This document shows positions 7,416 to 18,587 of a DNA stretch of 64,000 nucleotides, piece by piece (the stretch's first letter is position 1; every line of letters starts with the position of its first letter). The translations under genes were made by a program, and so were the position numbers. The notes under the pieces are model-generated. The model ran no database searches. It saw only the letters and a program-made list of their open reading frames with translations, and was not told the DNA's origin. This stretch comes from Verrucomicrobiaceae bacterium (lineage in GTDB: Bacteria; Verrucomicrobiota; Verrucomicrobiia; Verrucomicrobiales; Akkermansiaceae). The stretch lies in NCBI GenBank assembly GCA_027491155.1, contig JAIXWR010000043.1, positions 1-64,000 on the forward strand, in the 5' to 3' direction.

Positions 7416-10400
7416 ATGAAAACCCCTTTTCATCCCCGGCATCTCCGTCAGATGCGGTCGCGTGGATTTGCGCTGGTCATCACCCTTTCGCTGATGGTGC
7501 TGCTCACGGTGATTGCGGTCGGCCTCCTCTCGCTTTCGGCCGTTTCGCTCCGGGCATCGAGCCACGGGGACGCGATGGCCACGGCGCGGGCCAACGCCCA
7601 GCTCGCCCTGATGATGGCCATCGGCGAACTCCAGAGCCACGCCGGCCCGGACCAGCGCGTGACCGCCACGGCCAACATCGCGGGCACCGCCACCGGCGAC
7701 GAAGTCGCAGCCGGTGCCGCACCGCAGAACAACACGACGGTAAATAACATCAACAAGGGCCTGACCGCCGTCCAGCCAGGCACCCGCCACTGGACCGGAG
7801 TCTGGCGGAACTCCAATATCACCAACCCCGGGGTGGAAATCTACACGAAGACCCCCTCGCCCGCCCATCTCCAGTGGCTGGTCAGCGGCAACGAATCGGC
7901 GGCCAATTCGCCGCTCAAGCCCTCCGCGCAGCAGTTCAGCGTGTCGGCCGACGGCTCGGTGTCGGACTCCGGTGCCGGAGTGCTCCTGGTGGGCCCCGGG
8001 ACGGCGGGCGGGAACACGACCAATGCCGCCGACCAGTTTGTGGTGGCACCCTACGTCGAAGTTGCCGACGCCACCGGCACCAAGCCCGCCGGCCGGTATG
8101 CCTGGTGGATCGGGGACGAAGGCGTCAAGGCCCGCATCGACCTGCGCCGCACGGAGAGCGACTCGACCCGCTCCGCCTCGCTGGTCGCCCAGCGCCGCGG
8201 CTGGGAAACCGTCCCCGCCCTTGCCTCTTACCCGAGCCCCGGAACGCCGGGCGAGGATTCGCTGCCCAAGATCATCACCTCCGCCCAATCGACTTTCCTC
8301 GGCAGCGACAACACCACGGCCAAGCAGATTTTCCACGCCGCCACCTCGGACAGCCGCGGGGTGATCGCCGACGTCCTCAACGGCGGCACCCGCGTGGACC
8401 TCACCACCTTGCTCGAATCCGGACTCCCCTCGTCCAGCCCGGTGCCGGGCATCGCCAACTATCCGACGCTCGCCGACAACATGGTGCCGAAAACCTTCTC
8501 CCGGAACATGCGCGGTCCGCGCTGGGCCGCCCTCAAGGAGTTCCACGATCTCCCGGGGCAGTTGAACGGCGGCGCGTTGATCGTTCGCGCCGCGAACTTC
8601 GAGAAGACCAACACGAACAACCTCACCAACGCGAACGTGGTGAACGGCGTCAGCAACTCCTCCATCGCCCCGGTGGTGACCGATTTCCGCATCCTGATGG
8701 GCGTGCGCTTCGTTCCGTCCGGCGAAGGAATCAAGACCAACCCCTGCGGCAAGATCGCCATCGCCATCGCCAATCCCTACTCGGTGCCCTTGAAGTGGGA
8801 ACAGGACCTTGAGTTCCATATCAAGAACCAGACGCCTCCCGGCAACCGGCCCTCGCGCATCTGGAACCTCGGCAACGAGACCGCCTACTTCAACGACTCG
8901 AGCAACCCCGCCGAACCCGCGGTCTTCAACAACGTCTTCTTCCGCATCCGCCCCGCCACGCTCGAACCGGGCGAGGTGCGCGCCTACACCCATGGTGGCG
9001 CGGATTTCCGCAACCGGACCAATCCGCGCACCACCGTCGACCTCGCCGACTTTGCCACTTCGTCTCCCGGCAGCTTCAGCAGTTGCATCGAGATGGACAC
9101 GACGACCGTGCGGACCACGCTTCCCGGTTTGGATGTCCGCGAGAGCTGGCAAACCACGCTGGTGGGACTCGAGATGCGCCTCGGCGGCTCATCCTCCGGG
9201 GCCGGCTTGCTCCGCTCGATCGACCGCTTCGACCTCGACAACGGCTATTTCTCGCCCAACACCCGGCGCCTCGACATCAGCGAGGCGAAGCTGATGACCG
9301 CCCCGATCCCGTTGATGCTCTACAGCTTCTCCCTCAGCCAGCCAGGGATGGACTACCTCTCCCTGATGCCCGCCGGTTACGATCTCGGCCAACGCGCCTC
9401 CACCCTGAGGACCTTCATGGATTTCAACCTGCGCGCGGCCCGTTTCTACAAGCCCATCGCATCCTACAATCCGCCTCCCTATTTCATGGAGACCACCAAC
9501 TCCATCTCCCAGCTTCCCTCGACCGCCGGGATCACCGGAGACGCGTTCACCCGCGACCTCGCCATCCCGCGCTGGGGTTTCTCGTCGAAGACCGGACCGG
9601 GCCGCGCCATCCTCTACGACGTGCCGGAGCGGCTCGTCTCCATCGCCCAACTCCAGCACGCCGACCTGACCGGCGACGACGTCAGCTCGTCGATCGCCCA
9701 CCAACCCGCTTACGCCGTCGGCAATTCCTACGCCACTCCCTTCGTCAAGCGCCAGTTCACCACCCAGCGCCGCTTCGATTACGAGATCATCGGCTCGCCC
9801 AACCAATCCGGTGCCAACAACGCGCCCCGGAATTACTACGACCTCTCCTACCTGCTCAACACCGCGCTGTGGGACACCTACTTCTTCTCCACCCTTGAAG
9901 GGAGCGGTGCATCGCGGGCTCCCGAGAATCCCGCGCTCGTCTTCCATGGCGATTCCGGTGCCGCGAGGCTCTCCGACCCCTTGGAGCCCGGTGCCGCCCT
10001 GCTGATCGACGGCTCCTTCAACATCAACTCCACCAGCAAGGACGCCTGGAAGGCCTTCCTCGCCAGCGGACGCCACTTCAAGCACCAGGCGGACAAGACC
10101 GACAATCCGTCCGCGGCCTTCCCCCGCAGCCTGCGCCAGACGAGCTCCTCCGCCTCCCCGCCGACCGGAAACGGCGACGACTCCTACACCGGCTTCCGCC
10201 GCCTGAACGACGCGGAGATCGACGCCCTGGCCGGCGAGATCGTCAAGCAGGTCCGGCTCCGCGGACCCTTCGTCTCGCTGTCCCACTTCGCCAACCGGGC
10301 ACTCGGGGACATCAGCCGCCATCGCGACCTGACCCGCAGCGGCGCGCTCCAGTCCGCCGTCGATGAGAGCGGCCTGAACATCAATTCGACGGGTACCAAG

Positions 10401-10931
10401 ACCGCCTTCGCCAGCCTGACCGCCGCGAAGGACGCCATGAAGCTCGGCGAGAAGAATGGGGCTCCGCGGGCCGACATGGACGGAGGCGACACCGCCGGCC
10501 AGCTTCCCAACGCCGACCCCTCCGTGCCGGACTGGGCCGTGACCTCCACCGACAACAACTTCGGCTCCGTCGCCTCGATCGTCGCGGACCGCGTCACCAC
10601 CAGCAACCCGAGCTTCCAGCGGGAACAGAGCTACCGCTCCACCGGCATCCCCGGCTGGCTGACCCAGGCCGACATCCTCCAGGTGATCGGCACCGCCATC
10701 TCGGCCCGCTCGGACACCTTCCGCATCCGCACCTGCGGCGAGGCCCTCGACCCCTCGGGAAATCTGATTGCAAGGGCCTACTGTGAAGCCATCGTCCAAC
10801 GGGTTCCGGAATACGTGGATCCAACCGACGCCCCCGTGGAGCGCGGCACCCAACTCAATGCCACCAACGCCGACTATGGCCGCCAATTCAAAGTCGTATC
10901 CTTCCGCTGGCTTTCCAACGGTGAAATCTAA
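7416..10931 (+). CDS. Giant prepilin-like protein of the Verru_Chthon cassette A type
   Basis: 1171 residues. The N-terminus is prepilin-like: basic leader, then R-G17-F18 and a hydrophobic helix (ALVITLSLMVLLTVIAVGLLSLS). The +5 position after the expected cleavage is Ile rather than Glu, as in GspK/PilX-type minor pseudopilins that cap the filament tip. The rest is a large exported region of about 1100 residues with many Asn/Thr/Ser and no catalytic motif I can name. The family is known mainly from Verrucomicrobiota, where it occurs in cassettes with other prepilin-like proteins; such partners are not seen next to it here. The next gene starts inside its end (11-base overlap), so it appears to lead the downstream motor-like block. 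Confidence 0.75.
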   Translation: MKTPFHPRHLRQMRSRGFALVITLSLMVLLTVIAVGLLSLSAVSLRASSHGDAMATARANAQLALMMAIGELQSHAGPDQRVTATANIAGTATGDEVAAGAAPQNNTTVNNINKGLTAVQPGTRHWTGVWRNSNITNPGVEIYTKTPSPAHLQWLVSGNESAANSPLKPSAQQFSVSADGSVSDSGAGVLLVGPGTAGGNTTNAADQFVVAPYVEVADATGTKPAGRYAWWIGDEGVKARIDLRRTESDSTRSASLVAQRRGWETVPALASYPSPGTPGEDSLPKIITSAQSTFLGSDNTTAKQIFHAATSDSRGVIADVLNGGTRVDLTTLLESGLPSSSPVPGIANYPTLADNMVPKTFSRNMRGPRWAALKEFHDLPGQLNGGALIVRAANFEKTNTNNLTNANVVNGVSNSSIAPVVTDFRILMGVRFVPSGEGIKTNPCGKIAIAIANPYSVPLKWEQDLEFHIKNQTPPGNRPSRIWNLGNETAYFNDSSNPAEPAVFNNVFFRIRPATLEPGEVRAYTHGGADFRNRTNPRTTVDLADFATSSPGSFSSCIEMDTTTVRTTLPGLDVRESWQTTLVGLEMRLGGSSSGAGLLRSIDRFDLDNGYFSPNTRRLDISEAKLMTAPIPLMLYSFSLSQPGMDYLSLMPAGYDLGQRASTLRTFMDFNLRAARFYKPIASYNPPPYFMETTNSISQLPSTAGITGDAFTRDLAIPRWGFSSKTGPGRAILYDVPERLVSIAQLQHADLTGDDVSSSIAHQPAYAVGNSYATPFVKRQFTTQRRFDYEIIGSPNQSGANNAPRNYYDLSYLLNTALWDTYFFSTLEGSGASRAPENPALVFHGDSGAARLSDPLEPGAALLIDGSFNINSTSKDAWKAFLASGRHFKHQADKTDNPSAAFPRSLRQTSSSASPPTGNGDDSYTGFRRLNDAEIDALAGEIVKQVRLRGPFVSLSHFANRALGDISRHRDLTRSGALQSAVDESGLNINSTGTKTAFASLTAAKDAMKLGEKNGAPRADMDGGDTAGQLPNADPSVPDWAVTSTDNNFGSVASIVADRVTTSNPSFQREQSYRSTGIPGWLTQADILQVIGTAISARSDTFRIRTCGEALDPSGNLIARAYCEAIVQRVPEYVDPTDAPVERGTQLNATNADYGRQFKVVSFRWLSNGEI

Positions 10932-11772: not shown

Positions 11773-13068
11773 ATGAATTTCCGCTGCCCCCACTGCCAGC
11801 TCGAGATGAGCGCCGAGAACGAGCACGCCGGACAGGTCGTCTCCTGCCCCGGCTGCAACGGCCGCTTCCAGATCCCCGCCTTGCCCGAAGCCCCGGCCGC
11901 CGGTCCCGCCGCCGCCGGAAAGAAATCGACCGCAACCCAACGCGGCGGCTGGCAGGAAGAAGACCACGCCAACGTCAGCTTCGGCATCAGCCTCGGCATC
12001 GCCGCGGTCGGGACGGCGCTGATCCTGATGGCCATGATGCCCTTCGCAGGATCCACGGTTTCCGACATCCTCCTCAAGCGCGGCTGGGTCAACTACGCCG
12101 AGGTCTTCCTCTTCGTGTGGGGCTTCGTCATCCTCGCCATGAAGTGGAAGATGACCAAGCGCCAGCGCCAGGCGATGCTGCTGGACGTCGTCCCCGCGAG
12201 CCTCGGTGCCGAGATCAACGCCCACACCGTCGGCGGCTTCATCGAGCACATCTACAAACTGCCGCTCCGCTTGCGCGACAGCCTCATGGTGAACCGCATC
12301 CGGAAGGCCCTCGAGCTGTTCGAAAAACGCAACAACAACGGCGAGATCGCGACCTTCCTCAATGCCCAGTCGGACATCGATGCCAACCGCAGCGCCGGCT
12401 CCTACACCCTGATCAAGGTCTTCCTCTGGGCGATCCCCATCCTCGGCTTCATCGGCACGGTGCAGGGCCTTTCGATCGCCGTCAGCTCGCTTTCCACCGG
12501 CTCCGGCGATCCGAACCAGCTCAAGGACTCGATCAACCAGCTGACCGGCGGCCTCGGCGTCGCATTCGACACCACCCTGCTCGGCCTGGTGCTCTCGATG
12601 ATCCTCTCCTTCCCCCTCGCCAGCATGCAGAAGGAGGAAGAGGAAGTGCTCACGCTGATCGACGCCTTCTGCAACGAGAAGCTGATGCCGAAGCTCAACG
12701 ACTCGAAGAGCGACGCCAGCGACATGCTGCTCTCCCAGGCCGAGAACATCCCGGCCTTCGCCGCCTCCCTGGCCCGCGCCCACGAGCTCTTCCTGGTGAA
12801 GCTGCAGGACGCCACCGGCCTGCTCTCGCAAGCGGGAGAAACCCTGGCCACCCGCCTCGATGCCCATCAGACCAGGGTCGAAGGGACCTTCAGCAACGCG
12901 GTCGACAAGCTCACGTCGGAAACCCGCGATGCCATGTTGGTCCAGACACGCCAGCTCAACGATTACTTCGCGTCGCTCGCCAAAGGGGTCGAATCCCTGA
13001 ACGGCACCCTGCAGAAGCTGGGCGGCGAGACGATCGTCGTCCAGAAGCGGGGCTTCTTCTCGAAATGA
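11773..13068 (+). CDS. MotA/TolQ/ExbB-like channel protein with N-terminal zinc ribbon
   Basis: 431 residues. Residues 1-32 form a small zinc ribbon with C5, C8, C25 and C28, like the MJ0042 finger seen at the start of many PVC proteins. Membrane helices follow at about residues 68-92, 103-122, 215-240 and 260-285. The helix pair around residues 213-290 (AIPILGFIGTVQGLSIAV and GGLGVAFDTTLLGLVLSMIL) matches the TolQ/ExbB/MotA core, including the conserved G-T-V and the A-F-x-T-T-L-L-G-L motif that line the ion path. A helical tail of about 140 residues follows, longer than in TolQ. Two B-like single-pass genes follow immediately, so this is probably the pentameric stator ring of an ion-driven motor. 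The role of a zinc ribbon on such a protein is unknown. Confidence 0.8.
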   Translation: MNFRCPHCQLEMSAENEHAGQVVSCPGCNGRFQIPALPEAPAAGPAAAGKKSTATQRGGWQEEDHANVSFGISLGIAAVGTALILMAMMPFAGSTVSDILLKRGWVNYAEVFLFVWGFVILAMKWKMTKRQRQAMLLDVVPASLGAEINAHTVGGFIEHIYKLPLRLRDSLMVNRIRKALELFEKRNNNGEIATFLNAQSDIDANRSAGSYTLIKVFLWAIPILGFIGTVQGLSIAVSSLSTGSGDPNQLKDSINQLTGGLGVAFDTTLLGLVLSMILSFPLASMQKEEEEVLTLIDAFCNEKLMPKLNDSKSDASDMLLSQAENIPAFAASLARAHELFLVKLQDATGLLSQAGETLATRLDAHQTRVEGTFSNAVDKLTSETRDAMLVQTRQLNDYFASLAKGVESLNGTLQKLGGETIVVQKRGFFSK

Positions 13069-13087
13069 TCCTGCAAGCGGAACCGCC

Positions 13088-13906
13088 ATGTCACGCCGAG
13101 GATCCAATGCGGGAGGAGGAGGGGTTTCGCTGTTCCCCTTCCTCAGCATCCTTGCCTGCCTGATCGGCATCCTGACGCTCATGATCAAGCTGGTCAGCGA
13201 CCTTCGCGATGCCGGGCCGAAGGAGCAGGACCCGCAGGAGCTGGCGAGATCGGAAGAGTTCCTCTCCATCGAGGCCAAGCTCAAGGAGCGGCAGGCGCAC
13301 CTGGCGAAGGTCGAGGCCGAACTCAAGCAGCGCGACGGCGCCTTCGTCGAACTCCAGGAACTCGAGGACCGCCGGGTGGTCCTGCGCAAGAAGCTGGAGG
13401 GAGCGAAGGCGAAGCCCGGCGAATCCGACGCCGAGTTGCAGAAGCGCACGGAGAACCTGCTCGACCAGATCGCGGCCCTGCGGAAGGAACGGCCCGCCTT
13501 GGAAAAGAAAGTCGCGGAGCTCAAGGCGGAACTCGAGAAGCGCAAGATCAAGCCCGACTCGACACCGCCGCCCGTGGTCGTCCAGCCCGGCGGCTCCGGA
13601 GTCACCCGCAACACCCCGCTGTTCTTCATCGAGTGCCACGGCTCGGGCGTGAACATCCTCGGCAAGGACGGCTCGAAGACCGCGGTCTCCACCGCCGCCA
13701 TCACCACCGAACCGGCGCTCGCGAAGGTGATGAACGAGGCCAAGTCCGCCCGCGGCTCGCTGGTTCTTTTCCTGATCCGCGGCAACGGCCACTCGACCTA
13801 CCAGACCGCCGCCGGCTGGGCGGAGGACCGCTTCCAGGTGCGGACCGGCAAACTCCCGATCCCGGGCTCCGGTCCGATCGATCTCACCCTCTTCCAACCC
13901 CGCTAG
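13088..13906 (+). CDS. Single-pass coiled-coil partner of the TolQ-like channel, Ser in place of the ion-binding Asp
   Basis: 272 residues. One membrane helix at about residues 14-35 (VSLFPFLSILACLIGILTL) starts with a P-F-x-x pattern that matches TolR/ExbD (P-F-I-D); the residue at the Asp position is Ser20 here. A long, highly charged coiled coil spans about residues 45-165, and a globular C-terminal domain of about 95 residues begins at NTPLFFIECHG. The topology (short cytoplasmic N-terminus, one helix, periplasmic coil and domain) is that of motor B subunits. It lies 19 bases after the channel gene and 2 bases before a second B-like gene. Loss of the Asp suggests it cannot carry ions alone. 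Confidence 0.7.
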   Translation: MSRRGSNAGGGGVSLFPFLSILACLIGILTLMIKLVSDLRDAGPKEQDPQELARSEEFLSIEAKLKERQAHLAKVEAELKQRDGAFVELQELEDRRVVLRKKLEGAKAKPGESDAELQKRTENLLDQIAALRKERPALEKKVAELKAELEKRKIKPDSTPPPVVVQPGGSGVTRNTPLFFIECHGSGVNILGKDGSKTAVSTAAITTEPALAKVMNEAKSARGSLVLFLIRGNGHSTYQTAAGWAEDRFQVRTGKLPIPGSGPIDLTLFQPR

Positions 13907-13908
13907 CC

Positions 13909-15012
13909 ATGGCTTCACGCAGGAGAAAACGGGACGAGGAAGGCGGCAGCCTCGATTCGCTGATGGACGCGCTGACCAACGTCGTCGCCGTCCTCATCCT
14001 GATCCTCATCCTTCTCCAGGCGGATGTGCGCCAGGCGGTGGAGAAGATCGTCGAAAGCCTGAAGCCGGTGACCGTCGAGCAACTCGACCAGGCCCGGGAA
14101 CGGCAGAAGGAACTCGAGAAAACCATCGCCGCCCGCGAAAAGCAGCGCGAGGCCCCGGTTCCCGGACCGGAGGAGATCGGCAAGATCAAGGCCGACCTCT
14201 CCCTCCTCGAGAAGGAAGCGGCCCGCGAGGAAAAGCTCCTGCTCGAGATCGAGAAGCTGAGGAAACTCGCCGACCAGACGGCGCGCGAGGCGCAGTCCGA
14301 GAAGTCGAAGACCGACGCGGTGCTCGCGGAGATCGCCCGCTTGGAAGCCCTGCTCGACCGGACGCCGCGGCCGGTCGAAAAGCGCCCGACCGTCGTGCGC
14401 CTGCCCAACAGCCGCGAGATCCCGAAGAACGCGACGATCTACTATTGCTACATCACCGGCAACCAGGCGCATCTGGTCGATCCTGCCGCGGTGAAGGAGA
14501 CCCTGATGGAAGCGTTCGAGCGCGAGGCCCGCAACCTGATCCGCGAGCGGGTCAAGGTGAAGGGCGGGAAGGACCGGGTGATCTACGACCAGGAGAAGAC
14601 GGTCGCGTTTTTCGCGTCGAAGTCCTGGAACGTCCGGAACCAGAAAGTCACGGTCCCGTTCAACCGCCCGTGGACGAGGCTCAACTTCCGGATTGAGCTG
14701 GACCCCGCCAAGGGGGACGCCTCGCTCGAGGACATGAATCAACCCGACGGGCGCTTCCACCGGATGATGAAGCTGGTGCGATCTTACCGCAATGGCGTGC
14801 TGATGTTCCGGGTCCGTCCCGACGGTTTCGAAACCTATCTCAAGGCCCGCGAGATCGCCGATGAATTGCGGATGCCCTGCGGCTGGGAGATCGACGGCAA
14901 CAACGCCTACGCCGAACCGCTCGACTTCGAGGTCAACCGGCTGCAGGAACCGCCACCGGCACCGCCCCAGACGGACAAGCCGGTGCCGCGGCCGAAGCGG
15001 GTGCTTGATTGA
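13909..15012 (+). CDS. Second single-pass coiled-coil partner of the TolQ-like channel, with Asp
   Basis: 367 residues from the ATG at 13909, two bases after the previous stop. A basic N-terminus precedes one membrane helix at about residues 19-38 (MDALTNVVAVLILILILLQ). Asp20 sits at the start of that helix, where MotB/TolR/ExbD proteins have the ion-binding Asp. A coiled coil of about 120 residues follows (45-165), then a globular domain of about 180 residues starting ATIYYCYITGN, whose opening strands resemble those of the previous protein's domain. The C-terminus is rich in Pro. It ends the co-directional block; the surface-protein gene that follows is on the other strand. Together with the previous gene it may form a mixed B dimer. 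Confidence 0.7.
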   Translation: MASRRRKRDEEGGSLDSLMDALTNVVAVLILILILLQADVRQAVEKIVESLKPVTVEQLDQARERQKELEKTIAAREKQREAPVPGPEEIGKIKADLSLLEKEAAREEKLLLEIEKLRKLADQTAREAQSEKSKTDAVLAEIARLEALLDRTPRPVEKRPTVVRLPNSREIPKNATIYYCYITGNQAHLVDPAAVKETLMEAFEREARNLIRERVKVKGGKDRVIYDQEKTVAFFASKSWNVRNQKVTVPFNRPWTRLNFRIELDPAKGDASLEDMNQPDGRFHRMMKLVRSYRNGVLMFRVRPDGFETYLKAREIADELRMPCGWEIDGNNAYAEPLDFEVNRLQEPPPAPPQTDKPVPRPKRVLD

Positions 15013-15021
15013 TCAACCCGG

Positions 15022-18000
15022 TCAGGGGGCGTTCAAACGGTAGAAGCCTCGCGCAGCTCCCGCCGGTGCCATGACCTCCAGTTCCAGGCCGCCCTCTTCC
15101 CCGATCACGACTTCCCGCTCGCCGGACCAGACGGTCAGGTCGGTGGAATGCTCCAGCAGGTAGGAGGATCCCGGGGTGCCGCTGATGGACAGGAGGATCA
15201 CGCCCGGACGCGACGGATCGGTGGCCAGCGACATCCGCGGCAACTCGTCCGGAACGCTGCCGGCTTTCGCCTTGGCGGCGAGGCCCCGGGTGCTGGTCTC
15301 GGCCGGCTGCGTCACGTTGATGGTCACCGTGACGGGTGCGGAATCCACCGCGCCGTCGTTGGCGATGTAAGTGAAGCTGGCGGTTCCGACGAACTTGGAC
15401 TTCGGCTTGAAAACGAGGTTCGGCATCTTGCCGGAAAGCTTGCCGTTGGCCGGCCGGCTGACGATCCGGTAGGACAGCGTGTCCCCGTCGGCATCGGTGG
15501 CCCTGAGCGTCACCGGCACCGACGTCTTCATCGGGGTGCTGACCGACCACGGGGCCGACGAGGGCGCACGGTTGTTCGGATTCACCACACGGATCGAGAC
15601 CGTGGCCGCCGCGGAGGCCGCGAGACCGTCGTCGGCCACGAACGCGAAGCTGTCGTTGCCCTTGAATCCCGCTCCCGGCACGTAGGTCAGGTTGGGCGGC
15701 GTCCCGGAGAGGGTTCCGTTCGCAGGCTCCTTGGTGATCCGGAACGTGAGGGGATCGGAGTCCGGGTCCGTCCCGGAAATCTGCAGCGGGTTCCCCGTGT
15801 TCCAGTTCGCTTCGACCGTCTTGGCAACGGCGGCAGGCTTTGAGTTCGATTCCTTCACCTTGAGCGAGATCCACGCGACCGGCGAATCAGCGGCCCCGTC
15901 GTTGGCGACGAAGGCGAAGCTCGTGTTGCCGACAAAGCCCTTCTCCGGCAGGAACGTCAGGTTCGGCGGCGTGCCGCTGAGGACACCACCGAAGCTGGGC
16001 GGATTGACCACCCGGTAAGTAAGGGCGCTGCCTTCGGGATCCGTGGCGCTCAGCTGGATGTCGACCGACTTGTTCTTCAGGGTCGGGATCGACTGGGCAA
16101 CGGCCTGGGGTGCCGAATTGGTGTTCGCAATGTTGATGCTGACGGTGGCACTCGCGGAATTCGCCGATCCGTCGTTCACGCGGTAGGTGAAGCTGTCCGA
16201 ACCCGTGGCATTGGTGTTCGGGGTGTAGACGAAGCTGGGAGCAATTCCGGTGAGCACCCCTTTCGTCGGCAAAGTAAGCGGAATGAAAGTGAGCGTGCTC
16301 CCCTCAACATCGCTGCCGGTGAGTTGGATGGCTACCGCCGTGTTTTTCGAGGTGTTCACCGTCTTCGCATCGGCCACCGGAGCATCGTTCACCGCCGTGA
16401 TGCTGATGCTCACGGTGGCGGCGGACGAATTCGCGATGCCGTCGTTCACACGGAAAGTGAAGCTGTCGCTCCCGTTCGCGTTGCTGTTCGGCCGGTAGGT
16501 GAGATTGGGAGCCGTCCCCGACAGGGTTCCCTTGGTGGGATTGGTCACCACTGCATAGGTCAGCGAGTTCCCGTCGGCATCCGTTCCGCTGAGAACAATC
16601 GCAAGGTTGGTGTCCTCGGCGGTGGTGACCGACCCCGGCGTCGCCACGGGCACCGTGTTGAAGGCGGACACCGAGATCGAGACGGTTGCAGTCGCTGAGT
16701 TCGCGGTGCCATCGTTGACCCGGAAGGTGAAGCTGTCGGATCCGGTCACGCCCGAGTTGGGCGTGTAGCTGAGGTTGGGCGCCGTGCCGCTCAACACGCC
16801 TTTGGTCGGCGAGGTGAGCACCGAGTAGGTGAGCGGGCTGCCTTCGGCATCGCTTCCGCCGAGGGTGATCGCAACCGGCGTGTCAACGGTGGTGCTCACG
16901 GACGCCGCATTGGCCACCGGCAGATCGTTCACCGCGGCGATGTTCAGGTTGATGGTTGCAGCGGGCGAATTGGCGGCTCCATCGTTGACCCGGAACGTGA
17001 AGCTGTCCGTCCCGTTGGCATTCAGGGCCGGGGTGTAAGTCAGATTGGGCGGACTGCCGGACAAGGTGCCTTTCCCGGGCTGGTTCACGATGGAATAGGT
17101 GAGGGATCCCCCCTCGATGTCGCTCCCGGTCAGCGTGACGGCGACCGCGGTGTCCTCGTTGGTGTTCACCGTGGCGGGATTGGCGACCGGGATGTCATTC
17201 ACCGCCGTGATGTTCAGGTTCACGGTCGCGACCGCCGAATTGACGGTCCCGTCGTTGACCCGGTAGGTGAAGCTGTCGCTCCCGAAAAGGTTCGCGGCAG
17301 GCTGGTAGGTGAGGTTGGGCGGGTTTCCCGTGAGGATTCCCTTCGACGGTGCGGTGACGATGCTGTAGCTCAGGGAGTCGCCGTCCACATCGGCCCCGCT
17401 GAGGACCACGGCAACCGAAGCATCCTCGTTGGTATTCACCGTCTTCGGATCGGCGGCCGGCGCATCATTGACCGGAGTGATATTGATCGAGACCGTCGCA
17501 ACCGGAGAATCGAGCAATCCGTCGTTGACCCGGTAGGTGAAGCTGTCGCTGCCATGAACGTTGGCCGAAGGCTTGTAAACGAGATCCTTGCCGGTTCCGG
17601 TCAAGGTCCCCTTCCCCGGAGCGGCAACCACGATGTAGCTCAAGCCATCGTTCTCGGCATCGGTGCCGGAAAGGCTCACCGGGGCCTGGCCATCCTCGGC
17701 TACCTCGAGCGCAAGGGATCCCGCCGATGGTGCCGTGTTCGGCGTCCCGGGCACCGTGTAGCTGACCTCGGACGAAGGAGGACTGGTGACCCCGGCATTG
17801 TCGTAGGCGACCACCACGAAATAATAGGAAGTGCCCTGATTCAGACCGCTGGCGGTGGCCGTGGTGGCATTGCCGGCGTCGATGGTGTTCGGATACTGTC
17901 CGGGCACCGTGCCGTAGCGCAGGCGGTAACCTGCAACGCCGGACTCGGGATTGGGATTCCAGGCGAGCGTCACCGAGCGATCGGCGGCGGCATGGGCTTC

Positions 18001-18102
18001 AGAGGCCAGCGCCAGGAGCGCGGCTGCGAGGGCCAGAAGCCTAGCCGGGAAGCGACCGGATGAAGGCTTGCTGGATGATTTGGTGGCGACCAAGGGATTC
18101 AT
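15022..18102 (-). CDS. Large surface protein with fibronectin III and nine cadherin-like tandem repeats
   Basis: 1026 residues from the ATG at 18102, which begins a signal peptide (LLALAAALLALASEAHA). A fibronectin type III domain covers about residues 42-120. Residues 122-933 are nine tandem repeats of about 90 residues, each opening with N-D-x-P-V-A-like, containing G-T-D-x-E-G and ending D-S-F-T-F-R-V-N-D-G and A-T-V-S-I. These are Ig-like/cadherin-like domains, usually Ca-binding, found in adhesins. The last 93 residues form a separate domain (SISGTPGSSYLLEHSTDL) of a type often seen at the end of secreted verrucomicrobial proteins. It should be cell-surface or extracellular, with a role in adhesion. 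It is convergent with the motor block, ten bases away. Confidence 0.85.
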   Translation of the reverse strand: MNPLVATKSSSKPSSGRFPARLLALAAALLALASEAHAAADRSVTLAWNPNPESGVAGYRLRYGTVPGQYPNTIDAGNATTATASGLNQGTSYYFVVVAYDNAGVTSPPSSEVSYTVPGTPNTAPSAGSLALEVAEDGQAPVSLSGTDAENDGLSYIVVAAPGKGTLTGTGKDLVYKPSANVHGSDSFTYRVNDGLLDSPVATVSINITPVNDAPAADPKTVNTNEDASVAVVLSGADVDGDSLSYSIVTAPSKGILTGNPPNLTYQPAANLFGSDSFTYRVNDGTVNSAVATVNLNITAVNDIPVANPATVNTNEDTAVAVTLTGSDIEGGSLTYSIVNQPGKGTLSGSPPNLTYTPALNANGTDSFTFRVNDGAANSPAATINLNIAAVNDLPVANAASVSTTVDTPVAITLGGSDAEGSPLTYSVLTSPTKGVLSGTAPNLSYTPNSGVTGSDSFTFRVNDGTANSATATVSISVSAFNTVPVATPGSVTTAEDTNLAIVLSGTDADGNSLTYAVVTNPTKGTLSGTAPNLTYRPNSNANGSDSFTFRVNDGIANSSAATVSISITAVNDAPVADAKTVNTSKNTAVAIQLTGSDVEGSTLTFIPLTLPTKGVLTGIAPSFVYTPNTNATGSDSFTYRVNDGSANSASATVSINIANTNSAPQAVAQSIPTLKNKSVDIQLSATDPEGSALTYRVVNPPSFGGVLSGTPPNLTFLPEKGFVGNTSFAFVANDGAADSPVAWISLKVKESNSKPAAVAKTVEANWNTGNPLQISGTDPDSDPLTFRITKEPANGTLSGTPPNLTYVPGAGFKGNDSFAFVADDGLAASAAATVSIRVVNPNNRAPSSAPWSVSTPMKTSVPVTLRATDADGDTLSYRIVSRPANGKLSGKMPNLVFKPKSKFVGTASFTYIANDGAVDSAPVTVTINVTQPAETSTRGLAAKAKAGSVPDELPRMSLATDPSRPGVILLSISGTPGSSYLLEHSTDLTVWSGEREVVIGEEGGLELEVMAPAGAARGFYRLNAP
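15304..17739 (-). repeat. Nine tandem coding repeats of about 270 bp
   Basis: This region encodes the nine cadherin-like domains. Adjacent copies are partly alike at DNA level, for example the recurring segment for GSDSFTFRVNDG near the end of each unit. The last three units are more diverged than the middle ones. Such arrays can change copy number by recombination. Confidence 0.8.
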
Positions 18103-18587
18103 CGTGTTTGGTTGGATAGGCGTTGTGTCCCGCCGCATTCCGGCGGCGGGATCGCAGGGGGCCATCGATCGCAAGGACGCGGCAGCCGTCGGCGTGCCAC
18201 TCCGGGGGAAACGGAGCTTGCGTCTTGCGATCCCTGAAAGGAGCGCGGCAGGAAACCCGTTGTATCGGAGTTGCCAGGAAGCGCCGCACGACAACCCGGG
18301 ACCGCCCAAGGGACGGTTTGACGCGGCGCGCGGCGGCTTGTTCCTGACACTTCTGGATAAGCTCGGGCATGAAAACGGGTGGCTTGTCAGCGAAGTTCCC
18401 GGGGACGTCAAACCCCGTTAGAAAAATTGACGTTTCCGTAAAAATAGATGATCAGGATCTCTTAACAAGAAAATCCTTTCACAATCTTTGAACGCCGCTG
18501 AACAACAGCTGTCTGCGACCGAAACCCTCTAACAACAAGGGCTCCGCGGGCAAAATCCTTTAAGAAAAATCGTTTAATTTTTCTTAA
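18103..18587. other. Long leader region of the surface-protein gene
   Basis: About 485 bases without a supported gene, between two minus-strand genes. The part next to the surface-protein gene is GC-rich. The part from about 18418 to 18590 is strikingly AT-rich for this genome and contains ACGTCAA/TTGACGT inverted at about 18408-18435, the decamer AAAATCCTTT twice (18470-18479 and 18552-18561), and a perfect AT hairpin at 18561-18586. It likely holds the end of the upstream transcript and the promoter of the surface-protein gene. Confidence 0.4.
18561..18586 (-). terminator. AT-rich perfect hairpin after the 18588 gene
   Basis: TAAGAAAAAT at 18561-18570 pairs perfectly with ATTTTTCTTA at 18577-18586, with a six-base loop. 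It begins two bases after the stop of the minus-strand gene at 18588, the normal place for a terminator, but it has almost no GC pairs, so it would be a weak one. A binding site for a regulator is an alternative. Confidence 0.4.

Follow-up and report, generated by a model that had tools for sequence, protein, structure and literature searches.

Gene clusters that encode one MotA- or TolQ-like channel subunit together with two different MotB- or TolR-like proteins have been described before. In bacteria of the Planctomycetes-Verrucomicrobia-Chlamydiae (PVC) group, heterologous tolR-like gene pairs lie beside a tolQ-like gene, and vWA and TPR genes are frequently present as well, according to the relevant part of PMC12204202. 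The AglRQS gliding motor of Myxococcus xanthus contains two MotB-like proteins, and the passage of PMC9389320 that deals with them states that it is unknown whether they form a heterodimer. For the PomAB stator, the section of PMC10374538 on the ion path assigns sodium to PomA Thr158, Thr185, and Thr186, with Ala in place of Thr158 and Thr185 in proton stators, and describes a second sodium position to which PomB Gly20, four positions ahead of Asp24, contributes its carbonyl. A working man-made chimera, in which the periplasmic domain of PomB was replaced and the membrane part was kept with PomA, is found in the same section.

Here we analyze a locus of this layout in a 64,000-nucleotide stretch of DNA from a Verrucomicrobiaceae bacterium (contig JAIXWR010000043.1 of assembly GCA_027491155.1, a 5.7-Mb genome in 46 contigs), referred to as a whole as the window. 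Three consecutive genes on the + strand at positions 11773-15012, here called A, B1, and B2, encode a TolQ/MotA-like channel and two single-pass coiled-coil proteins, as an original prediction made from the sequence alone had proposed; A scored 40.3 bits against the Pfam family MotA_ExbB (cut-off 22.9) and so contains the domain of this superfamily. A tolQ-like gene followed by two different tolR-like genes is also the arrangement of the PVC pairs in the relevant part of PMC12204202; B1 and B2 are called tolR-like by position and layout, not by a Pfam match. The original prediction had held in addition that known stators use a homodimer of B subunits. The two MotB-like proteins of AglRQS, with their dimer state stated as unknown (PMC9389320), and the heterologous PVC pairs already in print (PMC12204202) speak against that statement, as far as the relevant parts of the two sources go.

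In one well-sampled family, the membrane core of this complex is found as two haplotypes, S and D, that extend over three separated segments of the operon. The family of the window trio is referred to below as the window family. The trio, its two residue classes, the linkage of the three segments, and their repeated change are established by the comparisons that follow. On balance, and with moderate confidence, we favor the interpretation that A, B1, and B2 make up an asymmetric ion-driven motor in which both B subunits sit in one A channel and which has two interchangeable ion cores.

The two classes are recognized by residues in the membrane helices of B1 and B2. These proteins share a layout in which a short N terminus and a single hydrophobic helix are followed by a long coiled coil and a small C-terminal domain, and their family profiles are homologous (hhalign 98.9%, E 2.8e-17), with part of the score supplied by the coiled coil. 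In this profile comparison, B1 Ser20 (P17-F18-L19-S20) stands opposite B2 Asp20 (S17-L18-M19-D20), in agreement with the predicted equivalence of the two residues. Among the 69 pairs of the window family, 44 combined B1 Ser with B2 D-x-x-x-D (the window and 43 others), 25 combined B1 Asp with B2 V-x-x-x-D, and mixed pairs were absent (0/69). The proposal that only one ion site would be present in the Ser form is not borne out, because B2 has Asp16 besides Asp20 whenever B1 has Ser in the window family; Asp16 had not been mentioned in the original prediction.

When 64 complexes from several families (40 S and 24 D) were compared, five positions passed the threshold. Three of the differences were strict (A Thr267 or Ala, B1 Ser20 or Asp, and B2 Asp16 or Val, each in 40/40 S and 24/24 D), and two were near-strict (A Arg103 or His in 39/40 S and 24/24 D; A Val216 or Ala in 36/40 S and 24/24 D).

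The wider comparison covered 139 loci of the phylum after the removal of three duplicates, 127 of them with both B genes readable at the key positions. B2 Asp20 was present in 126 of these 127 pairs and is therefore nearly invariant. Ser is not conserved in B1 (Asp in 25/69 pairs of the window family, and Cys, Ala, or Asn elsewhere in the phylum), and B1 often has no Asp. In other groups of the phylum, B2 DxxxD was paired with B1 Cys (7 pairs), Ala (4 pairs), or Ser (2 of 45 such pairs in this comparison), and B1 Asp with B2 TxxxD (3 pairs), NxxxD, GxxxD, or WxxxD (1 pair each). At one locus (L225), B2 reads DLLLG, with Gly replacing the otherwise invariant Asp and B1 Asp kept, a natural loss on the B2 side.

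On a tree of the joined periplasmic parts of the 69 pairs, made without the N termini and helices, the classes were scattered, with at least 7 changes on supported branches, and B1 and B2 changed together in 7/7 independent pairs (p 0.0156). On the tree of A, the classes were nearly sorted. Because of this difference, the operon was divided into segments, and mean identities within and across classes were determined for 24 close loci (9 S and 15 D). Identity was 78% within versus 49% across classes for transmembrane helices 1/2 of A, 87% versus 68% for its cytoplasmic part, 85% versus 68% for transmembrane helices 3/4, 90% versus 57% for the N terminus and helix of B1, and 90% versus 50% for those of B2. 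The corresponding values were 78.0% versus 74.5% for the A tail, 64.3% versus 58.5% and 77% versus 76% for the coiled coil and C-terminal domain of B1, and 63% versus 59% and 61% versus 59% for those of B2. DNA trees of the segments from 32 loci had one class change each for the A core, the B1 N terminus, and the B2 N terminus (support 97, 100, and 99, respectively), and 7, 10, and 10 changes for the A tail, B1 distal part, and B2 distal part, of which supported branches force 6, 6, and 8. In window numbering, the borders lie near A residues 59 and 316, B1 residue 46, and B2 residue 45. As haplotype-linked segments are separated by unlinked ones, linked and unlinked stretches alternate along the operon. 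From the common change of the three segments, we conclude that both B helices must match the A core, as a shared pore predicts.

In the mechanism that we favor, A, B1, and B2 would form one membrane motor of the MotAB, TolQR, and ExbBD kind, with A as a ring (a pentamer by homology) and with B1 and B2 both inserting a helix into a shared A channel, most probably as one copy each. In the version found in the window, B2 would carry the ion (Asp20, with Asp16 one turn away) and B1 would offer only Ser20, so that every step would involve ion uptake and release by B2 beside a passive partner, in an asymmetric cycle. In the other version, each B helix would carry one Asp, and both could act in turn. 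Ions would flow through either form, the haplotypes would differ in ion handling, and the shafts would end in small alpha/beta domains that presumably pass force to the cell wall or outer membrane. The core (A 59-316, B1 1-46, and B2 1-45) would be a co-adapted unit that exists in two haplotypes and that has been exchanged repeatedly between species, while the cytoplasmic tail, coiled coils, and C-terminal domains stayed in place. That both B helices are linked to the A core argues that both touch it, and the coupled states of B1 site 20 and B2 site 16, together with the uselessness of a B1 pair that lacks Asp, favor one B1 and one B2 per channel.

It is also conceivable, although we consider it unlikely, that two homodimeric motors share one kind of A, with dimers of B1 in some complexes and of B2 in others, and that the Ser-type B1 complex is a non-conducting regulator or plug. 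Linkage of the B1 and B2 N termini to the A core does not in itself need contact between B1 and B2, and, according to the passage of PMC9389320 on this point, AglRQ and AglRS could in theory each make up a channel of their own. A Ser-type B1 homodimer would have no Asp, yet this B1 is kept in 44/69 pairs of the window family, and within that family a change at B1 site 20 never occurs without a change at B2 position 16, which suggests direct contact.

A rather improbable arrangement is one in which B2 alone supplies the pore dimer and B1 sits peripherally on A in the manner of TolA or TonB. B1 lacks Asp in many complexes, and the relevant part of PMC12204202 describes TolA/TonB-like helices that bind beside the ring, a precedent for such an edge position. 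Against this placement, B1 and B2 are homologous and have the same architecture, and B1 has an Asp exactly at the ion-binding position in 25/69 pairs of the window family.

The distribution of the classes was compared with the species background by use of rpoB. On an rpoB tree of 28 genomes, class needed 9 changes, at least 8 of them on supported branches, and shuffled labels gave a mean of 8.5; B1 and B2 changed together in 8/8 independent pairs (p 0.0078). For 27 of these genomes, distances in the distal parts followed those of rpoB (rho 0.77 for the A tail, 0.77 for B1 distal, and 0.80 for B2 distal), with little or no class effect. The overall correlation was rho 0.22-0.38 for the core parts; within a class it was 0.60-0.70, and across classes it was 0.44 for the A core, 0.21 for the B1 N terminus, and -0.07 for the B2 N terminus. 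Cross-class core distances were 0.34-0.40 even in the closest fifth of genome pairs. The distal parts thus track rpoB and the core does so much less, which indicates that the distal parts descend with the species and that it is the core that alternates. The divergence of the core with species within a class fits two old, persisting versions, and it fits exchange among near relatives as well. Stretches outside the operon were collinear between an S and a D locus in two cross-class pairs (L140 and L113, 87-92% identity; L114 and L066, 88% identity), so the two versions occupy one chromosomal place and are not the result of a binning error. Among the candidates scored in 11 S-class and 16 D-class genomes, at first up to a fixed number per genome, there was no silent second copy of the other core; the scan found only the resident core and short matches elsewhere.

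We think it very unlikely that there was no exchange and that a common pressure led each species independently to the same membrane residues. With only five diagnostic positions over the compared families, convergence at these positions is thinkable, and fourfold sites show little difference between the core and the distal parts. The class differences, however, go well beyond five residues (compare the identities of A transmembrane helices 1/2 and the B2 N terminus), the DNA trees of all three segments place the classes on opposite sides of one branch each, and at least 8 independent convergences of such extent are implausible. The reverse reading, in which the core descends with the species and it is the tails and distal parts that move, is hardly credible, since, although the direction cannot be read from the operon alone, class is scattered over the rpoB tree about as shuffled labels are, the distal parts track rpoB much more than the core does, and cross-class pairs are collinear outside the operon.

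Several observations weigh against the asymmetric motor with exchangeable cores. Two separate homodimeric complexes that use the same kind of A would account for the linkage of the helices to A as well. On the A-core tree, the D core arose only once (DV, one change, support 98), so that the window family has seen a single event of residue exchange. Elsewhere in the phylum, 33 pairs combine B1 Asp with an acid four residues before B2 Asp20 (24 Glu and 9 Asp), and 6 pairs combine B1 Asn with B2 SxxxD, which has no acid at that place. On a wide A tree (121 of the 127 loci), the trade-off between B1 and B2 amounts to 1-3 independent cases and is not significant; it holds in the window family and is not a phylum-wide rule. 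Fourfold sites are near saturation and separate core from distal parts weakly (cross-class, 0.48 for the core and 0.52 for the distal parts; same-class, 0.59 and 0.53). The single-chain models are weak (pLDDT, the predicted local distance difference test, of 57.7 for B1 and 56.9 for B2), and the shaft lengths of B1 and B2 correlate negatively (r -0.54, 24 genus means). In G106, a genome from the same family as the window, A tail identity is 34-54% to the other family versus 23-30% to its own, so that the whole of A is foreign there, not the core alone. At L078, the distal parts are also nearer to D-type loci of another family than to its own genus, and this locus looks like a transfer of the whole operon. 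As these two cases show, the operon also moves by routes other than core exchange.

In G106, all three diagnostic A residues are of D type. Its B1 N terminus is 67-76% identical to D-type loci versus 31-40% to S-type loci of its own family, and its B2 N terminus is 68-82% versus 30-36% identical. The distal part of B2 is 45-50% identical to four members of its own family, 33-34% to two others, and 24-30% to D-type loci, and the distal part of B1 does not discriminate. B2 of this genome lies on another contig than A and B1 (L045, 10437-12322; L208, 2875-3696), and its helix still matches the class of A. Beside the separated B2 is an open reading frame that looks like a transposase gene.

A simple rule that B1 and B2 together always have two acids was considered and was wrong for the phylum, given the 33 three-acid and 6 one-acid pairs. 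The Asn/SxxxD pairs (L194, L195, L198, L201, L205, and L212) have a single Asp across both helices at these positions, and they are, as judged from these residues, the best candidates for a true one-site motor.

With respect to the ion path, the spacing of Pro222-Gly225-Thr229 and of Ala264-Thr267-Thr268 in A equals that of Pro151-Gly154-Thr158 and of Ala182-Thr185-Thr186 in PomA, and B2 Asp20 matches PomB Asp24 by motif, as far as the relevant part of PMC10374538 covers these residues. In weak alignments with solved MotA chains (E 0.08-0.3), Thr267 fell at the first Thr of V-A-L-I-T-T in one chain and at the Ala of V-A-F-I-A-T in another. Three of the five class differences (A 267, B2 16, and B1 20) thus lie at the expected ion path. 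One might guess that the window form is sodium-stator-like at position 267 and that the other form is proton-motor-like. Also to be counted on the opposing side are that Thr229 is retained in both haplotypes, whereas the corresponding Thr158 is missing from proton stators, that other groups of the phylum with B1 Asp have Thr-Thr at 267-268, and that nqrA was found in 0/37 genomes; on these grounds, the case for sodium is thin. Sodium economy, as gauged by nqrA, was thus dropped as a contrast between haplotypes. All counts for Thr267 are from the 64-complex comparison, as an automatic table of Thr motifs in A mislabels some loci by catching an earlier stretch.

A fuller scenario, which is possible though doubtful, joins these elements. 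Two old co-adapted cores would use different ions or ion cycles, S being sodium-like with all ion binding on one helix and D proton-like with one Asp on each. Selection would keep both cores in circulation, and recombination would reunite the three segments as shafts and tips stay with the species. The outcome would be a natural, repeated PomB/MotB chimera in a 5:1:1 motor.

Should the Ser version prove functional, ion binding on a single one of the two axle helices would be enough to drive a motor of this kind, and models in which two Asp residues take turns would be constrained accordingly. The five-position difference also makes it possible to probe, with a few mutations, how a motor outside the flagellum chooses its ion.

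The coordinates of the features are collected below.

Table 1. Features of the A-B1-B2 locus, in positions of the window
Feature	Position	Strand	Basis
A, MotA/TolQ/ExbB-like channel subunit, 431 amino acids	11773..13068	+	Pfam MotA_ExbB match, genome search
A zinc ribbon, Cys5, Cys8, Cys25, Cys28	11785..11856	+	all 4 Cys kept throughout 19 aligned A proteins
A membrane core, residues 59-316, haplotype segment 1	11947..12720	+	same- versus cross-class identity, core tree
A pore segment Pro222-Gly232, including Thr229	12436..12468	+	PomA Thr158 position by motif
A Thr267-Thr268	12571..12576	+	PomA Thr185-Thr186 position; Thr267 is Ala in other haplotype
A cytoplasmic helical tail, residues 317-431, unlinked to haplotype	12721..13065	+	tail tree, rpoB distance
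B1, single-pass coiled-coil subunit, 272 amino acids	13088..13906	+	41 loci with B1 relative in first set
B1 N terminus and transmembrane helix, residues 1-46, haplotype segment 2	13088..13225	+	identity, tree, border near residue 46
B1 Ser20 codon, site of ion-binding Asp	13145..13147	+	Ser in 40/40 S-class, Asp in 24/24 D-class
B1 coiled coil	13232..13540	+	helices 49-104 and 114-151 in low-confidence model (pLDDT 57.7)
B1 C-terminal alpha/beta domain	13619..13900	+	strands/helices 178-271, same low-confidence model (pLDDT 57.7)
B2, single-pass coiled-coil subunit, 367 amino acids, ATG at 13909	13909..15012	+	relatives in 83/141 genomes of order
B2 N terminus and transmembrane helix, residues 1-45, haplotype segment 3	13909..14043	+	identity, tree
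B2 Asp16 codon, one helical turn before Asp20	13954..13956	+	Asp in 40/40 S-class, Val in 24/24 D-class
B2 Asp20 codon, presumed ion-binding Asp	13966..13968	+	Asp in 126/127 complete pairs, phylum-wide
B2 coiled coil	14074..14361	+	helices 56-79 and 87-151 in low-confidence model

The A protein consists of an N-terminal zinc ribbon, the MotA_ExbB domain, and a helical cytoplasmic tail, and its residues Pro222, Gly225, Gly228, Thr229, and Gly232 are invariant among 19 aligned A proteins. For B2, a longer open reading frame with a GTG start at 13633, within B1, was also listed. Three residues after B2 Asp20 there is a Thr, as in MotB. In the window, B1 and B2 had no Pfam family above cut-off, no ExbD/TolR match at E values up to 1, and no match to an OmpA-like peptidoglycan-binding domain or MotB. 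ExbD/TolR (PF02472) was not among the 25 most frequent families for 21 B1 and 21 B2 relatives at E values up to 0.1. The one ExbD of this genome that was picked by motif gave no significant score against the B helices; its Asp fell in the column of B2 Asp20 and B1 Ser20.

The single-chain models of B1 and B2 were built from three-row alignments and are of poor quality; within the B2 model, residues 91-150 reached a pLDDT of 75-89. Weak as they are, both models show the same series of elements, a helix, a coiled coil, and a small alpha/beta domain. The weak B1 model had no Foldseek match at an E value of 0.001 or better, ExbD/TolR was not listed, and its VIA-align rows were all below Z 8. By these weak models, the shafts are similar in length (about 158 residues from Ser20 to the first strand in B1 and 156 from Asp20 to the first strand in B2). 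Equal shaft length was dropped as a test of heterodimer formation, because the lengths vary little and correlate negatively.

The three genes co-occur more often than chance would give: relatives of B2 were found in 83/141 genomes of the order, and the arrangement A-B1-B2 on one strand in 38/42 loci of the first set. The remainder consists of three loci truncated at the end of a contig and a split one (L045). Within this first set, L010 and L041 belong to one genome, and L052 has a stop inside B2. Among the genomes listed for genus g2, there was no B2 relative. A search with an N-terminal B2 profile matched 72/387 genomes of the phylum, and a plasmid collection had no B1 or B2 relative.

Over 41 loci of the window family, only two clusters of neighboring genes were conserved, in 4 genera each. 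No vWA or TPR gene was a conserved neighbor in these loci, and no partner gene accompanied the trio. The open reading frame before A and six other neighboring ones in the window were scanned, and none had vWA or TPR. Converging on the trio from the - strand is a gene at 15025-18411 for a 1129-amino acid protein with many cadherin-like/Big_9 repeats (tandem-95), which is likely a surface protein. On the other side, a 1171-amino acid protein is encoded at 7416-10931, and its N terminus weakly resembles Verru_Chthon cassette protein A (24.1 bits, far below the cut-off); for the open reading frame between this gene and A, L009 was the sole locus of the first 42 with a relative.

Three genomes have both kinds of motor as separate operons, G181 (L172 and L187), G204 (L177 and L110), and G373 (L178 and L179), each with one Cys/DxxxD pair and one Asp/TxxxD pair. 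In another branch of the phylum, a gene for 650-685 amino acids lies between A and B1 (L105, 3604-5559; L106, 3502-5559), and a gene of the same size class directly precedes B1 in L212 (4323-6320). The genes of L106 and L212 were scanned, and both match NHL repeats; this product could be a periplasmic partner of the motor of that branch.

Among known systems, the window family is a relative of the PVC vWA-type loci, from which it differs in having no conserved vWA or TPR neighbors in 41 loci. The PVC-type form, with a vWA gene beside the B pair, is seen at L184, L189, and L191; these vWA-type relatives have F-Q-D in B1 and [E/D]-LLL-D in B2, three acids in all, unlike the window pair. The relevant part of PMC12204202 does not discuss Ser at the Asp site or haplotypes. 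AglRQS resembles the trio in having one MotA/TolQ-like and two MotB/TolR-like proteins from one cluster, as the pertinent parts of PMC9389320 and PMC3169522 describe it. According to the same parts, AglQ and AglS are predicted to have Asp and match Pfam ExbD/TolR, whereas B1 and B2 of the window have no such match; they also have long coiled coils, and the Ser version is without a counterpart in those parts. An Asp in both B proteins, as in AglRQS, is not present in the window, where B1 has Ser20, and is found in the sister haplotype.

Zorya has in common with the trio an A protein with a helical cytoplasmic tail, and A weakly resembles ZorA, with a match to PADLOC ZorA2 over the channel part (39.9 bits, E 6.5e-11); matches of the tail are low-complexity helix. 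A scored 29.7 bits against NCBIfam ZorA_2, far below the cut-off of 100, the best ZorB match was at 12.4 bits (E 0.021), and there are no conserved partner genes. From PomAB and MotAB, the window trio differs in having no OmpA domain match, no flagellar context seen, and two unlike B subunits. The PomB chimera, with its distal part swapped and its membrane part kept, as the relevant section of PMC10374538 describes it, parallels the natural arrangement in the window family.

Among the open-licence papers searched, we found no description of the Ser form, of a core in two haplotypes, or of haplotype exchange, nor, for stators, of anything like this segment pattern. Three separated segments that occur in two combinations across species, with the stretches between them not doing so, would in our judgment be unusual for a bacterial operon. 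With regard to the mixed-dimer question raised for AglRQS in the relevant part of PMC9389320, the natural variation described here offers a testable answer, as the core and both helices change only together.

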